Shown here: positions 39,732-47,520 of the stretch, in pieces
Layout of the letters: the number at the start of each line of letters is the position of its first letter
Position numbering within the stretch: the stretch's first letter is position 1
NCBI GenBank assembly: GCA_020444065.1
Contig: JAHLLQ010000006.1
Span: 310,001 to 374,000, forward strand
DNA: 64,000 nucleotides
From: a bacterium
GTDB lineage: Bacteria; Sumerlaeota; Sumerlaeia; SLMS01; JAHLLQ01
Direction: 5' to 3'
Made by a program: the position numbers and the translations under genes
Notes under the pieces: generated by a model
The model's input: the letters and a program-made list of their open reading frames with translations, nothing else
What the model was told of the DNA's origin: nothing
Database searches by the model: none

Positions 39732-40229
39732 ATGGCGAAGTCCCAAGATCCAACAACCTCCGAACTGGTGGGCAAGAAAGCCCCGACCTTCACCCTCCCC
39801 GACCAGAACGGGAAGAAGCGCAAGCTGTCCGATTACAAGGGGCAGTGGGTTGTCCTATTCGCGTATCCGAAAGACGCCACACCGGGGTGTACAAAAGAAG
39901 CCTGCGGCTTTCGCGATGCGGCGGCGGACTTCAGGAAACTCGGCGCCCAGGTGCTCGGCATCTCAATTCTGGACACTGCCTCGAAGAAGAAGTTCGCCGA
40001 CAAGCATGGCCTCAGCTATCCCCTGCTGGCGGACGAGGATCATGCCGTCGCGGAGAAGTACGGTTTCTGGAAGGAGAAATCAATGTACGGGAAGAAGTTC
40101 ATGGGGATCAATCGCGAGACGTTTGTGATCGATCCGGAAGGCAAGATCGCCGCGCATTGGCAGAAGGCCAGCGGGAATGAGGCACACAGCGCGGAAGTGC
40201 TGGAGTGGATCAAGGCGAAGGTAGAGTGA
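39732..40229 (+). CDS. bcp: Thioredoxin-dependent thiol peroxidase (Bcp/PrxQ)
   Basis: 165 aa. GAGGAG lies upstream of the ATG. The peroxidatic cysteine is Cys53 in TPGCTKEAC and the resolving cysteine is Cys58, five residues later as in atypical two-cysteine PrxQ/Bcp enzymes. Other family features: KAPTFTLPDQNG, VVLFAYPKDATPGC and VIDPEGKIAAHW. It reduces peroxides using thioredoxin in the cytoplasm. Confidence 0.95.
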   Translation: MAKSQDPTTSELVGKKAPTFTLPDQNGKKRKLSDYKGQWVVLFAYPKDATPGCTKEACGFRDAAADFRKLGAQVLGISILDTASKKKFADKHGLSYPLLADEDHAVAEKYGFWKEKSMYGKKFMGINRETFVIDPEGKIAAHWQKASGNEAHSAEVLEWIKAKVE

Positions 40230-41151: not shown

Positions 41152-41223
41152 GGTCAACGCGTATTGGCCTGGATAGAACACACACCTCCGCCTCCTTGGA
41201 GCCCTTCACAGGATCGATGCCAC

Positions 41224-41334: not shown

Positions 41335-43548
41335 ATGCTATCAGATAGACGGGAGTTCCTGAAGCAGCTCGGAGCCGTTACCGGGAGTGGCTTGCTGGGG
41401 ACCGGATCTGCCTTTGCATCCGAGTCCAAGCATGGCCCGGCAGTCTCCGAGGATGCTGTGGGTGTGTTGGTTGACCTGACGCTCTGCATCGGGTGTCGGC
41501 TCTGCGAGCACGCTTGTAAGAAGGGCAATGGATTCGATGCAGGACCGGTCGAGAAGTACGATGACCAGTCCGTCTTTGCAGAACAGCGCCGCCCAGCGCC
41601 GGACGCTTACACGGTGATCAACGCCGAACCAAATCCGGAAGTGCCCGGCCAAGACGTTTACATCAAGACAAATTGCTTCCACTGCAATTACCCGGCCTGC
41701 GTGTCGGCGTGCATTGTTGGCGCATTGCACAAGACGGAAGCTGGTCCGGTTGTTTACGATGCCTGGAAGTGCATCGGGTGTCGCTACTGTATGGTGGCTT
41801 GCCCATTCCAGATCCCGGCCTATGATTATCACAATCCGCTGACGCCGGAAGTTCAGAAGTGCGAGCTCTGTCACGAGCGCCTCGAGGCCGGCGGAATGCC
41901 GGAGTGCGTAAAGGCCTGCCCGCGCGAGACAATGGTGTTCGGCAAGCGCACTGAGCTTATCAAGCTGGCCCACGAAAGAATTCGCAAGAATCCCGGCAAG
42001 TACATCGATCACGTCTACGGTGAGCACGAGGTCGGCGGAACGAGTTGGATGTACCTGTCGAGTGTGCCGTTCGAGGAGATCGGATTCCTCGATCTGCCGA
42101 AGGAAGCGCCCCCCGCGCTGACGGAGAAGATCCAGCACAGCGTCTTCAAGTACGGACTGCCGCCGCTGATGCTATACGCTCTCCTGGGCGGTGTCATGTA
42201 CCTGACGAAGCCGCGCCAAGGATTTGCGCCACTGAAGAAGGAGACCCTGGAGGCACTGGAGAAGGGACCCGAGCCGGAAGCGGAGCCCGAGGCCAAGGCA
42301 ACCAGGGAAGATCATCCGTGGGAGGAATGGGAGCACGATCACCCGCCGGATCATCACTTACATGCGCACGAAGAAGAACCGGCCCCGGTGAAGGGGAGAT
42401 TCTTCACGCCTGGCGTCATGGTGTTGATCGCACTCGCTGCCACGGGTCTGTTCTTTGGCCTCAAGCGTTTCATCTTCGGCCTGGAATCCACGACGAACCT
42501 GGATCACCAGTACCCCTGGGGTCTGTGGATCGGAGTCGACGTGGCAAGCGGCGTTGCGCTGGCGGCGGGCGGTTTTACGACAGCGTTCCTTGCTCATATC
42601 ATACATCGTGAAAGATATCACGCAATCGTCCGACCGGCACTCCTGACAGCGATGCTTGGTTACACGTTCGTCTGTCTGGGTCTCCAAGTAGACCTGGGGC
42701 GATACTACAACGTCTGGCACCCGATGTTCATGTGGCAGGGCAACTCCGTGCTCTTTGAAGTCGGCATGTGCGTGATGTGCTATCTGACAGTCCTCTACCT
42801 GGAATTCATGCCCATCGCGTGCGAGACTTTCATGGCTCAGGATCGCTTCCCACGGATCAAGAAACTTGCAACCTTCGCTTACGGCAAGGTGAACAAGATC
42901 ATGTTCCTTCTGGTGATCGCAGGCGTCGTTCTTTCCTGCCTGCATCAGTCGTCACTGGGAACGTTAATGGTGATCGCGCCGTCGAAGCTGCATCCTCTCT
43001 GGTGGACGCCTCTGTCGCCGTTGCTCTTCCTTCTATCCGCGATCGCGGTCGGTTTCCCGATGGCTATCTGGGAATCGCTGCTCGCGAGCAAGTCATTCAA
43101 ACTGAAGCCCGAAATGGACGTCCTTGGACCATTGGCGCGCCTTATTCCATTCACGTTGGGCGTGTACCTGATCATCAAGATCGGCGACATGATCTGGCGC
43201 GGGACCTATACGTATCTGGGCGATGGTTCAGTGGAGAGCATCTGCTGGATCATTGAAGTCGGTGCCGGTGTGATTCTGCCGATCGTCATGTTCGCCATAC
43301 CGAAAGTCCGCCGCTCGCCGAAGTTGCTCTTCATCCCGGCGACGCTGGCCGTGCTTGGCGTGTTGTTCAATCGCGTGAACGTATTCGTGATCGGCTACAA
43401 CCCGCCGTACACGGACAAGACGTACGTTCCGTCCATCGGAGAATTCGCCGTCACGATCGGGCTGATTGCCACGTTGATGCTGGTCTATCGCGTGATCGTC
43501 ACTTTCTTCCCAGTCATCAGCCAGCCGAAGGCGAAGGTAGCCGCATGA
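41335..43548 (+). CDS. Tat-exported 4Fe-4S ferredoxin fused to NrfD/HybB quinone-interacting membrane subunit
   Basis: 737 aa, ATG at 41335 with GGAG upstream. A Tat signal (DRREFLKQLG) begins the HybA-like half, which carries 16 cysteines in four groups: CIGCRLCEHAC, CFHCNYPACVSAC, CIGCRYCMVAC and CELC-x(n)-CVKAC, enough for four [4Fe-4S] clusters. A membrane helix (about 280-300) ends that half, as in HybA. A His/Asp/Glu-rich linker (about 318-350) leads to a nine- to ten-helix half that matches E. coli HybB across its length (YPWGLWIGVDV, GRYYNVWHP, CLHQSSLG). E. coli HybA plus HybB total about 720 residues, so this is a near-complete fusion. Expected job: exchange electrons between quinone and periplasmic partners. 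The stop overlaps the next gene by ATGA. Confidence 0.92.
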   Translation: MLSDRREFLKQLGAVTGSGLLGTGSAFASESKHGPAVSEDAVGVLVDLTLCIGCRLCEHACKKGNGFDAGPVEKYDDQSVFAEQRRPAPDAYTVINAEPNPEVPGQDVYIKTNCFHCNYPACVSACIVGALHKTEAGPVVYDAWKCIGCRYCMVACPFQIPAYDYHNPLTPEVQKCELCHERLEAGGMPECVKACPRETMVFGKRTELIKLAHERIRKNPGKYIDHVYGEHEVGGTSWMYLSSVPFEEIGFLDLPKEAPPALTEKIQHSVFKYGLPPLMLYALLGGVMYLTKPRQGFAPLKKETLEALEKGPEPEAEPEAKATREDHPWEEWEHDHPPDHHLHAHEEEPAPVKGRFFTPGVMVLIALAATGLFFGLKRFIFGLESTTNLDHQYPWGLWIGVDVASGVALAAGGFTTAFLAHIIHRERYHAIVRPALLTAMLGYTFVCLGLQVDLGRYYNVWHPMFMWQGNSVLFEVGMCVMCYLTVLYLEFMPIACETFMAQDRFPRIKKLATFAYGKVNKIMFLLVIAGVVLSCLHQSSLGTLMVIAPSKLHPLWWTPLSPLLFLLSAIAVGFPMAIWESLLASKSFKLKPEMDVLGPLARLIPFTLGVYLIIKIGDMIWRGTYTYLGDGSVESICWIIEVGAGVILPIVMFAIPKVRRSPKLLFIPATLAVLGVLFNRVNVFVIGYNPPYTDKTYVPSIGEFAVTIGLIATLMLVYRVIVTFFPVISQPKAKVAA

Positions 43549-44630
43549 GAGACATCAGACCACGTTACATTCTTCTGCTTGCCATGCTGGCAGTCCTGGG
43601 AGTGTTCGCTTCGTCGCAGCTTGTTCTTGCCAATTGCGATGAAGACGAACCGGCGGAGAAGGGTCCGGAGATCGTGATCCTGGACGAGTTGGAGAACGAA
43701 TACGAGCCGGTTCCGTTCGACCACCTGGCGCACGCCCAGATGGCCCAGATGTGGCACGGATGCGTGACCTGCCATCACTACAGTCCGCACCCGGAGGACG
43801 CCTCCAGCACGGCAACAATAGTTCTTTCGGAAACGCCGCGGCAGGAAGAGTCCGCGCAATTCCCGGCCTGTAGTTCCTGCCATGAAGTCGGTCTGGATGA
43901 ATCGGAAATCACTATGCCGGGCTTGAAGGGCGCCTATCACCGCCAGTGCCTGAATTGCCACAAGGAATGGATGCACGAGAACGCCTGCGTGATTTGCCAC
44001 GAACCCAAGGATTCAGAAGTGGAGCCCATGCAACCGACGTCGGGAGACATCGTTGGCCGGATGCACCCGCCGATTCCCGAGCCTGGAGACGTGTACTACA
44101 AGACACGGTTCACGCCTGCAGATGGTGGAAACGTCCTGTTCCGCCACCAGGAACACACGACGCGATACGACATCCGGTGCGTCGATTGTCACTTTGAAGA
44201 CAACTGCTCGCACTGTCACGGCTCGGAAGGCGATACAACAGCGCAAAAGCCCCTGAAGCCGGGCATGACATGGGATGAATCGCACGGACCCTGCATGGCC
44301 TGTCACAAGGATGATCGGTGTCAGCATTGCCACTTCCACGATGAGACCGATCCCCCACCGATGTTCAGTCACGAAATGACGGGGCAGGTACTCGACGAAG
44401 ATCACGTGGAGATCGCGTGTTCGGAATGCCACATGAACTTGCGGTGCGATGAAGTGCCGTCTTGCGGTGGCGTTGCTTGCCACAATGAAAAGCCCATCGA
44501 GTATCCAACAGATCTGCCAGGGCCAGTCCTGACGCCGACTCCATCGCCGACGCCTCTGCCACCCGTGCGAGGAACCGAAGAAGCAGATGGACAGCCAGAT
44601 GCGCCGGCTGCAGAGGGAGGCGGTCTATGA
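43545..44630 (+). CDS. Periplasmic multihaem cytochrome c (about ten haems)
   Basis: 361 aa, start overlapping the stop of the fusion gene (ATGA). The N-terminal signal peptide ends near SSQLVLA. There are nine CxxCH motifs (CVTCH, CSSCH, CLNCH, CVICH, CVDCH, CSHCH, CMACH, CQHCH, CSECH) and one wider C-x4-CH (CGGVACH), so up to ten covalently bound haems. Many free histidines can act as second ligands. The spacing resembles class III/NrfB-like wires rather than a catalytic cytochrome. The C-terminal 45 residues are a Pro/Thr/Ser then Glu/Gly-rich tail, perhaps a linker. Role: electron carrier between the Fe-S/NrfD fusion and the next cytochrome (inference). The stop overlaps the next start. 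Confidence 0.9.
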   Translation: MRDIRPRYILLLAMLAVLGVFASSQLVLANCDEDEPAEKGPEIVILDELENEYEPVPFDHLAHAQMAQMWHGCVTCHHYSPHPEDASSTATIVLSETPRQEESAQFPACSSCHEVGLDESEITMPGLKGAYHRQCLNCHKEWMHENACVICHEPKDSEVEPMQPTSGDIVGRMHPPIPEPGDVYYKTRFTPADGGNVLFRHQEHTTRYDIRCVDCHFEDNCSHCHGSEGDTTAQKPLKPGMTWDESHGPCMACHKDDRCQHCHFHDETDPPPMFSHEMTGQVLDEDHVEIACSECHMNLRCDEVPSCGGVACHNEKPIEYPTDLPGPVLTPTPSPTPLPPVRGTEEADGQPDAPAAEGGGL

Positions 44631-46912
44631 ACGCCTCCACGATACGGCAATTATTCGGAATCGCGTGCTTGCTGATGCTTGTCTCTGCAGCCCGAGTCTA
44701 TGCCGTCGACAAACCGACAGAAGCGGTCGATCCCGGTGGCTGCGTCACAACCGAGTGTCACGGAGAAGTCGAAGACTATGCCGTGCTACACGGTCCGGTC
44801 GGCGGTCTCACGTGCGATGCATGTCACGAAGTCGTCAGCGTCGAAGAACACACCTTCCGACTCTGGCGAGAGGGCGAGAAGCTCTGCACCTATTGTCACG
44901 AGTTCGATACCGGCCTGCTGCCTGTTGTGCACTACCCGGTCACGGCCGGCGAGTGCCTCGGTTGCCACAATCCCCACGGCGGACCGGATCATGCACTGAG
45001 TCGCGAAGAGACAATGGCGGATACGTGCGGCCGTTGCCACGAGAGCGTTTCCTACGGCAAGGAATTCATGCACGACCCCATCATGAAGGGCGAGTGCACG
45101 AATTGCCACCGTCCCCACGCGTCGAGATTCCCGATGCTGCTGGACATTGTCGGCGACGACTTGTGCCTGGCTTGCCACAAGGACTTCGGCAAGGATATGC
45201 AGCAGATTAAGTTCCGGCACGAAGCACTGGATGAGGGCTGTGAAGCCTGTCACGATGTGCATGCTTCCAACTACCCGTCGGGTCTTTCGCTTTCGATCGC
45301 TGATGGCTGCCTGCAATGCCATGAGGATGTGCGCGAAAGCACTCTAGCAGATGTGAAGCACCCATCCGTGGTCGATGAACGCGCCTGTCTGTCATGCCAC
45401 ACGGCGCACGGTGGGGACCTGGATGCTCTGATGCGCGACGAGCCCGTTCGCGTCTGCATGGATTGCCACGACGAGAAGATCGAGAAGGACGGCGTGGAAC
45501 TGATGACCGCGATGGTGCGCATCAACGATCCGTCGCGCTTCAAGCACACGCCGGTGGCGGAAGGCGAATGTGGAGGCTGTCACACGATTCACGGTGGCGA
45601 TCAGGTCGCGCTACTGCAGAGTGCCTACTCGACAGATTTCCACCAGCAATTCTCCCCCGAGAACTATGATCTCTGCTTCGAGTGTCATGACGAACGCCTT
45701 GTGCAGGAAGAGAACGTCGGCGATCTGACTGGGTTCAGAAACGGCGAACGAAATCTGCACTTCGTCCACGTGGCGGAGGGTGAGGACTTCGCCCGCAACT
45801 GCAGAGTCTGCCACGGCGTACACACATCCACGTACCCGATGTTGATTCGCGACAAAGTTCCCTACGGCAATTGGATGATGCCGATTCGGTTCGAAAAGAC
45901 CGAGACCGGCGGAACCTGCATGACGGGCTGTCACACGGACTACGCGTATGATCGCGAGCATCCAGTCGATTCGACAACGCTGATCGCCGCCGATTCGCCG
46001 CGTCTGCCACGAGCGGATAAGGATGAGCCGGTACTTGCCATGTTCACGGGGATGAACCTCGACGGAGAAGTCGTTGAGGTTCCCGACGGAAACCGTCCGA
46101 GCATCATCATGTTCCTGCGCGGTGGCCAGCCACAAAGCCAGCAGATGATGGAAACGGTTGCGGCAGAGAGCAGCGCCCTTCAGCCGGCGCAGATCGTTGC
46201 CATCTTCAGCGGCGAGACGGCCGGTGAGCAGGCAGAACCATACGCCGGCACAAGCAGCGCCCCCTGGCCAATCCTGATTGATCCGGAGTACCATCTCTCC
46301 AGCATGCTGGGCGTTGAGGTCTGGCCCGCAGCGTTCATTGTGCAGTCGGATGGCGTCCAGATTGCACACATCGGCGGAGCGCCTCTTTCCCTGGCGGTCT
46401 CGCTCGAATCCTACATCCAACTGGCTCGTGGCGAGATCGATCGCGAAGCCGTTCGCCAGCGTTTGGCTTCGAACCAAGTCATCGGCGACGGGTCCGCCAA
46501 GAGCGCCATCTGGCACCTGCAGATGGGCGGCAAGCTGCTTGATGAAGGAAAGCCGGAAGAGGCTCGTGCAATGTTTGCAAAGGGCCTCGAACTGGATCCG
46601 GAGTCGGTGGATCTGAAGGTTAAGATGATCAGCACGCTCGCGGAACTTAAGAATGCGAAGGATGCTATCAACCTTCTGGATCGCTTGCCCGAGGATGCAC
46701 TGCCGGAGTGGCAAACGAATCTGCTTCGCGGCCAGGTCATGGCAGCCGTCGGCCAATGGGATGAAGCTCGTCGCCTTGCTGTTGAAGTCCTGAAGCAGCG
46801 CCCGAATCTCGGCGATGCGCACTACCTGATGGGCATGGTGTACGAGCAGAACAAGCAATTCGAACTGGCCGCTGAAGAGTACCGCGCAGCAATCAAGGCA
46901 GGGGGACGCTAA
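44627..46912 (+). CDS. Multihaem cytochrome c fused to thioredoxin-like and TPR domains
   Basis: 761 aa; the ATG overlaps the previous stop. A signal peptide (about 1-26) is followed by 13 CxxCH motifs in residues about 60-420. One C-x4-CH (CVTTECH) near the start and one C-x3-CH (CMTGCH) at the end could raise the total to 15 haems. Many motifs sit in GECxxCHxPH or EACxxCHxxHxS units typical of doubled CxxCH domains. Residues about 465-603 look like a TlpA/AhpC-type thioredoxin fold (IIMFLRGG, WPILIDPEYHLS, VWPAAFIVQSDG), but the usual C-x-x-C place reads GQPQS, so it cannot do thiol chemistry. Residues 620-760 are TPR repeats. Last gene of the operon, ending at a strong terminator. Confidence 0.9.
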   Translation: MNASTIRQLFGIACLLMLVSAARVYAVDKPTEAVDPGGCVTTECHGEVEDYAVLHGPVGGLTCDACHEVVSVEEHTFRLWREGEKLCTYCHEFDTGLLPVVHYPVTAGECLGCHNPHGGPDHALSREETMADTCGRCHESVSYGKEFMHDPIMKGECTNCHRPHASRFPMLLDIVGDDLCLACHKDFGKDMQQIKFRHEALDEGCEACHDVHASNYPSGLSLSIADGCLQCHEDVRESTLADVKHPSVVDERACLSCHTAHGGDLDALMRDEPVRVCMDCHDEKIEKDGVELMTAMVRINDPSRFKHTPVAEGECGGCHTIHGGDQVALLQSAYSTDFHQQFSPENYDLCFECHDERLVQEENVGDLTGFRNGERNLHFVHVAEGEDFARNCRVCHGVHTSTYPMLIRDKVPYGNWMMPIRFEKTETGGTCMTGCHTDYAYDREHPVDSTTLIAADSPRLPRADKDEPVLAMFTGMNLDGEVVEVPDGNRPSIIMFLRGGQPQSQQMMETVAAESSALQPAQIVAIFSGETAGEQAEPYAGTSSAPWPILIDPEYHLSSMLGVEVWPAAFIVQSDGVQIAHIGGAPLSLAVSLESYIQLARGEIDREAVRQRLASNQVIGDGSAKSAIWHLQMGGKLLDEGKPEEARAMFAKGLELDPESVDLKVKMISTLAELKNAKDAINLLDRLPEDALPEWQTNLLRGQVMAAVGQWDEARRLAVEVLKQRPNLGDAHYLMGMVYEQNKQFELAAEEYRAAIKAGGR

Positions 46913-46980: not shown

Positions 46981-47112
46981 GGATTTCCCCGTTCCAGCAC
47001 TTTGGAGTTCTGATTGCTCTCTGTAATAGTCTTATCCCCTCGGGGTTGCATTGGCTCGGCGAGTGTGACAGGATCGCACAACCTGACGAAGAATGCACTC
47101 AAGGAGAGCGAT

Positions 47113-47520
47113 ATGTCGGACATTACGCTGGAACAAGCACACGAAGTCCTGATGGCGGCCGTCGCAGCATCGAACGAACTGGGACTGAAAATGGACGTCG
47201 CCGTCGTGGATGCCGGGGCGAACTTGAATGCCTTTGCGCGCATGGATGGAGCCTGGCTCGGCAGCATCGATATTGCGATCAAGAAGGCTCGCACTGCCCG
47301 GTTCTTCGATATGCCGACGGGAGCGATCGGCGAACTATCGCAACCGGGAGGTTCGCTCTACAACATCGAGCACTCAAATGGCGGGCTGATCACCTTTCCC
47401 GGCGGCCTACCCATCAAGAATCCCGCGGGCGAAGTTATTGGGGCCATCGGAGTCTCCGGCAGCACCGTCGTGAACGATCACGCCGTGGCATCGGCAGGTA
47501 TAGCGGCGGTCTCCTGTTAG
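47113..47520 (+). CDS. GlcG/HbpS family protein
   Basis: 135 aa from the ATG at 47113 (AAGGAG six bases upstream). Family features: the N-terminal helix with [19 protein letters not shown], the strand [42 protein letters not shown] and the closing [20 protein letters not shown]. The family includes the haem-binding sensor HbpS and GlcG of glycolate operons. Next to a multihaem operon a haem link is tempting but unproven. The gene has its own terminators on both sides, so it is a separate unit. Confidence 0.85.

Follow-up and report, generated by a model that had tools for sequence, protein, structure and literature searches.

A single stop-free open reading frame encodes a Tat-signalled HybA/HmcB-like domain with a membrane tail, followed on the same chain by a ten-helix HybB/HmcC-like protein of the NrfD type. 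It lies in the window, that is, the whole stretch of 64,000 nucleotides that was analysed. The two halves are separate proteins in most of the relatives that were read, and their fusion raises the question of how an exported Fe-S domain and a polytopic membrane domain are placed from one polypeptide.

Gene structure and domain organisation

The frame runs without a stop over 737 codons from an ATG, which the preliminary description had already recognised as the start, while the mechanical open reading frame begins farther upstream, at the TTG at 41164. The parts of the protein are collected in Table 1. Within the translated sequence, Pfam places Fer4_11 at residues 109-205 and NrfD at residues 390-688. 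An AlphaFold2 model built on 66 rows (mean pLDDT 88.4, pTM 0.85) contains the tail helix, ten long helices between residues 359 and 724, and a segment of low confidence at about residues 310-350, between two confident domains. All three features that had been read from the sequence, namely a Tat signal, a membrane tail of the HybA type and a membrane half of ten helices, were recovered. The best fold match of the C half (residues 337-730) is ActC (6btm_C; Z 32.5, 388 residues aligned, rmsd 3.3, VIA-align), and the N half (residues 39-294) matches FdnH (1kqf_B; Z 19.0, 244 residues aligned, rmsd 3.6, VIA-align). Promoter and terminator scans at the locus gave signals that were not clearly above those of shuffled sequences.

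Table 1. Features of the fused gene and of the cytochrome genes behind it (positions in the window)
Feature	Position	Strand	Basis
Fused HmcB/HybA-like and HmcC/HybB-like protein, 737 aa	41335..43548	+	ORF reading, Pfam, NCBIfam, BLASTP
Tat signal peptide, RREFLK (residues 5-10), residues 1 to ~29	41335..41421	+	Sequence, direct
Ferredoxin domain of the four-[4Fe-4S] type, residues ~42-232, with four groups of Cys (16 in total)	41458..42030	+	Pfam, BLASTP, fold match
Weakly hydrophobic helix forming the C-tail of the HmcB half, with Pro-Pro (residues 259-291)	42109..42207	+	Sequence, model
Linker, residues ~289-353, acidic and His-containing, low model confidence	~42199..42393	+	Sequence, model
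NrfD/HybB/HmcC-like ten-helix quinone-site subunit	42394..43545	+	Pfam, NCBIfam, BLASTP, fold match
Multihaem cytochrome, 9 CxxCH; start overlaps the fusion stop (ATGA)	43545..44630	+	ORF reading, NCBIfam
Second multihaem cytochrome, 13 CxxCH, then redoxin-like stretch and TPR repeats; start overlaps the preceding stop	44627..46912	+	ORF reading, Pfam

A stop codon or frameshift between the halves in a resequenced genome had been named as the finding that would speak against a true fusion. None is present in the window, and because nine other loci, from other assemblies, also read stop-free, the fusion does not stem from an assembly slip of the window contig. It is scarcely conceivable that an assembly or sequencing artefact has joined two overlapping genes: split neighbours do often lie in overlapping frames and one relative carries a stray in-frame stop, but the linkers of the nine other stop-free loci vary, and the group to which the window copy belongs is well supported in the phylogenetic tree.

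Family identity

The two halves had been described as matching E. coli HybA and HybB nearly end to end. As far as alignment goes this holds: in BLASTP against the E. coli K-12 proteins, residues 4-292 align with residues 2-312 of HybA (35% identity, E 2e-51) and residues 346-728 with residues 2-376 of HybB (31% identity, E 3e-59), but the HmcB and HmcC models score about equally. Among the NCBIfam models, the best score of the N half is that of HmcB (333.3 bits, cut-off 420), with HybA (NF008134) at 249.7 bits and a curated cut-off of 263, while the best score of the C half is that of HybB (NF008133; 348.9 bits, curated cut-off 450), with HmcC at 298.5 bits and a cut-off of 550. The E. coli proteins themselves, run as controls, reach 597 bits (HybA) and 625 bits (HybB), both far above their own cut-offs. 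Membership of the NrfD/PsrC superfamily (PF03916) is indicated by 68.8 bits, above the gathering cut-off of 25.8. Judged by these sequence models, the window protein stands beside the HybA, HybB, HmcB and HmcC families and inside none of them by their cut-offs.

An identity with HybA and HybB in the hydrogenase sense did not hold up. The near full-length identity to both E. coli proteins and the top rank of the HybB model for the C half speak for a hydrogenase-2-type HybA/HybB unit fed by a periplasmic NiFe hydrogenase. Such a unit is very unlikely, given that both scores fall short of their cut-offs (250 of 263 and 349 of 450 bits) and that the neighbouring genes encode multihaem cytochromes rather than hyb products. 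A search of the genome with PF00374 returned two NiFe hydrogenases, neither of them near the window and both adjoining cytoplasmic-type genes. Inspected by eye, one is of the HdrABC-MvhDGA type (L119, 84-6707) and the other of the HydBGDA type, with NAD(P)H-diaphorase-type neighbours (L120, 1690-6373). The set of 3b and 3c hydrogenases in PMC8092238 hints at a Sumerlaeota affiliation. No group-1 NiFe hydrogenase was found in the genome or among the scanned neighbours, which also gave no HmcDEF-like genes. The window protein is not a part of a hydrogenase 2: its scores lie below the cut-offs, the genome yielded no group-1 hydrogenase, and the genes immediately behind it encode two multihaem cytochromes.

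Adjacent cytochromes and proposed function

The first of the two cytochromes matches HmcA weakly (54 bits of a cut-off of 400). The second is 36-39% identical, nearly end to end, to its counterparts at L034, L142 and L144, and its redoxin-like stretch is without CxxC and matches AhpC-TSA below the cut-off (E 1e-4). The pair with 9 and 13 CxxCH stands behind the fusion in all seven window-type members, three of the second cytochromes being cut by the contig end, and a 13-CxxCH cytochrome follows HmcC in 10 of the 10 split relatives L130-L139, within the short stretch of sequence covered. At L034 (10181-13825) both cytochromes are encoded by one open reading frame with 22 CxxCH. In other genomes, at L058 (1417-4179) and L059 (1183-3855), the module shows a fusion of another kind, in which the HmcC half runs in frame into an 11-CxxCH cytochrome. 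Around the window locus, a peroxiredoxin of the AhpC-TSA family is encoded about 1.1 kb upstream of the fusion on the same strand (39732-40229), and an HbpS-like haem-related protein just downstream of the cytochromes, also on the same strand (47014-47520), followed by an alkaline phosphatase gene. Genes for TatC, NrfA and COX1 are present in the genome.

Of the HybB residues assigned to the quinone site or proton path, the window protein retains D58, R89, Y99, D109, S129, E133, E148 and H184. It lacks S105 and S190 (quinone site) and T63, Y77 and S95 (proton path). Replacement of R89, Y99, E148 or H184 in HybB lowers H2 oxidation, according to the available part of the study (PMC8076601). The fused pair of tail-anchored ferredoxin and HybB-like protein, together with the two cytochromes, is probably a quinol:periplasmic cytochrome oxidoreductase, a module most likely linking the quinone pool to cytochromes of the periplasm by electron exchange. 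Quinol would be handled on the periplasmic side of the HmcC half, and the four Fe-S clusters of the HmcB half would relay electrons, by a presumed path, towards or away from the cytochromes; protons would take the conserved HybB-type path.

This assignment places the Fe-S half in the periplasm. A cytoplasmic Fe-S half, as in an inward-facing (SoeC-type) complex, would suit the fused protein L070, which has no recognisable Tat motif, but is most improbable for the window protein, which carries a full RRxFLK signal in a genome that encodes TatC and whose adjacent partners are multihaem c-type cytochromes, normally periplasmic proteins.

Recurrence and phylogeny of the fusion

The fusion recurs in related genomes, where the preliminary description had proposed to look for it, both in the same class and in Planctomycetota. 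Ten loci carry a fusion that reads without a stop between the halves (window, L003/L032, L033, L034, L070, L125, L126, L128, L129 and L140), and the halves as separate open reading frames at 75 loci (62 + 13), 2.2 kb apart in two of these. The 85 loci that were re-read comprise the top similarity ranks and some picked for long joint frames, so that 10 of 85 is neither a frequency nor a census. A long joint open frame was rejected as a count of fusions, a single in-frame stop separating the halves at 16 such loci; a fusion was counted only where the joint frame had been re-read without stops. In unfused relatives, hmcB lies mostly directly upstream of hmcC, with ATGA overlaps in some.

L003 and L032 represent one genome, which holds the closest same-class copy. 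It is fused, but an in-frame TAG follows later, inside the HmcC half (L032, 9695-9697), on a contig whose title gives a coverage of 1.18, and this copy may be broken or misread. In the Planctomycetota-class sample of 397 genomes, which was searched twice, the same 24 matched each time at E 1e-90 or better, and the fusion is stop-free in seven of them (G042, G043, G899, G933, G945, G1106 and G1151); among the 24, G1140 and G1152 were left out of the re-reading, and G963 has the first half only, at a contig end. The other phylum sample (395 genomes, 164 matching at E 1e-40 or better) gave no fusion in the re-read loci of 29 genomes. In genome G1151, a split copy and a fused one lie within about 3 kb of each other (L143, 913-3185 and 5920-8127), each followed by a 13-CxxCH cytochrome.

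A tree of the C half was built from 76 rows, with L041, L042, L043, L053, L055, L074-L078 and L104 omitted as long branches or near-duplicates. The fused label changes four times on this tree, at least three of the changes being forced by well-supported branches, so that the tree needs at least three fusion origins. One supported group (100/98) unites the window copy with L003 and L125, and another (100/100) comprises L033, L034, L126 and L129. These seven fall, with L128, within a supported clade of 20 rows, the other 12 being split copies of the Planctomycetota-class sample; one fusion origin or more within this clade would both be compatible with the tree. In a smaller first tree, the window copy, L003, L033 and L034 were found in one clade (99/98). 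L140 and L070 are placed by the tree as separate fusion origins. L070 (397-2595), the fused protein on a separate branch that has no recognisable Tat motif, may have its Fe-S half facing the cytoplasm. A transfer between phyla is likely, because L125, from the Planctomycetota-class sample, groups with the window copy.

The linker

The acidic, His-rich composition noted for the linker was borne out. Its 65 residues include 7 His and 17 Asp and Glu, and His is enriched over the rest of the protein with a binomial p of 0.001-0.004 that varies with the choice of edges. The further suggestion of a special metal-binding element is unsupported. That the His, Asp and Glu residues make up a selected metal-binding or metal-sensing element is improbable, although His enrichment (p < 0.01) recurs in 6 of the 10 fused proteins and in 6 of the 7 of the 9 + 13 CxxCH group: the linkers of the ten proteins share no motif, their length ranges from 39 to 109 residues, and the enrichment is absent from four of them, namely L032 (a close relative of the window copy), L128, L140 and L070. 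Unfused E. coli HybA also has an Asp/His-rich C-terminus, DHHDGGDDHES.

The composition can be traced instead to the old ends of the two proteins. The linker end in the window, AHEEEPAPVKGRFFTPG, compared with the N-terminus of the unfused HmcC of L091, MSFHEEPAPVDKGFFTTG, matches in its last ~16 residues; in unfused relatives the HmcB tail is charged and HmcC starts with segments such as the latter. A Pro-Val three residues ahead of the first helix motif is kept in all four fused proteins first checked. From these comparisons, the linker looks like a former HmcB tail and a former HmcC N-terminus that were joined and then drifted, and the fusion would have arisen when the hmcB stop was lost and the frame was joined into hmcC.

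Another reading is that a start within the linker lets the fused DNA still give two proteins. Four codons ahead of the HmcC motif the window has a GTG, itself preceded by a GAAGAA run, but the former HmcC start Met is lost and none of the four fused genes checked has an internal start with a Shine-Dalgarno-like match, which makes this reading improbable.

A tail helix of low hydrophobicity was considered as a hallmark of the fusion and rejected: a first comparison gave 1.15 for fused and 1.50 for split proteins (4 against 22, p 0.017), but L128 and L140 score 1.49, and the comparison is also confounded by relatedness.

Topology and biogenesis

A Tat-exported protein with a C-terminal tail helix has its C-terminus in the cytoplasm. 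In 9 of the 10 fused proteins, at least two Lys or Arg were found by eye within about 8 residues past the tail helix, in line with a predicted cytoplasmic placing of that side. For the other half, HybB has ten helices, whereas TtrC, with nine, has its N-terminus on the P side and its C-terminus on the N side (PMC8076601, available part); from this comparison, the HmcC N-terminus and the linker would be cytoplasmic. The fusion would then need no change of topology, because the end of the HmcB tail and the start of HmcC would both already be cytoplasmic in the split proteins, and the fused chain would be N-out, with 11 helices, and C-in, as in the split pair.

It was pointed out in the preliminary description that the two halves must be inserted by different routes, and two insertion routes within one chain are plausible. 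SRP/Sec would insert the ten HmcC helices during the cytoplasmic maturation of the Fe-S domain, after which Tat would carry this domain across and place the weakly hydrophobic tail helix. The likely benefit of the fusion is a fixed 1:1 stoichiometry without orphan HmcB. HybA is cleaved by GlpG when HybB is lacking, as described in the available part of PMC7232013, and by analogy the covalent link would keep such orphans from arising.

Relation to known systems and significance

The electron-transfer unit itself is already known in unfused form. The available part of PMC10924467 describes a pair of tail-anchored ferredoxin and HybB-like protein that is accompanied by one or two cytochromes, and the window locus resembles that module in gene order, in the Tat signal and C-tail of the Fe-S protein, in the NrfD-like partner, in the one or two cytochromes and in having no fixed hydrogenase neighbour. 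It differs in that ferredoxin and HybB-like protein are one chain, the C-tail continuing in frame into the HmcC half. According to the same part of that survey, proteins with up to two helices were retained, and the fused form therefore lay outside its reach. No description of the fused form was found in the open-access papers that were searched.

Compared with other known complexes, the window protein is closest to Hmc in its N half (333 bits with HmcB) and scores 298 bits with HmcC in its C half, but the Hmc complex has a 16-haem HmcA and HmcDEF, whereas cytochromes with 9 and 13 CxxCH are found here and the cut-offs of 420 and 550 are not reached. With E. coli HybA and HybB it shares 35% and 31% identity, the eight functional residues and an acidic, His-containing HybA tail; in E. 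coli, however, these are separate genes within a NiFe hydrogenase operon. ActB and ActC of alternative complex III are similar by the fold of the C half, for which ActC is the best match, but there is no molybdopterin-type domain in the window protein, and its Fe-S and NrfD parts are on one chain.

What is new here is the biogenesis puzzle of a chain in which Tat comes first and Sec after. Proteins that use both routes are described in the available part of PMC5449189 (the actinobacterial Rieske protein, Sco3746 and the NapH-NapG polyferredoxin), with the Tat motif before the last helix and after the Sec helices. Like these, the window protein combines Sec-type helices and a Tat-needing cofactor domain on one chain, and like the NapH-NapG polyferredoxin it is the fusion of a pair that is otherwise separate; unlike them, it has its Tat signal at the N-terminus and its ten helices behind the Tat domain. 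Whether it represents a dual-route class of reversed order, with an N-terminal Tat-exported Fe-S domain and then ten Sec-type helices, is an evenly balanced question; among fusions that carry a Tat signal, such a class would have two or more origins (window group and L140). If it is real, either Tat moves a folded domain whose C-terminal side is tethered to a polytopic domain already in the membrane, or Sec starts after Tat.

A natural chain of this order would offer a direct test of whether Tat handles a domain anchored at its C-terminal side, and also of the way in which export is held back until cluster insertion is complete. Because several lineages have fixed a 1:1 ratio by fusion, the finding suggests that HmcB and HmcC act as one unit, and it would make a quinol-cytochrome enzyme that has been little studied accessible through one gene.
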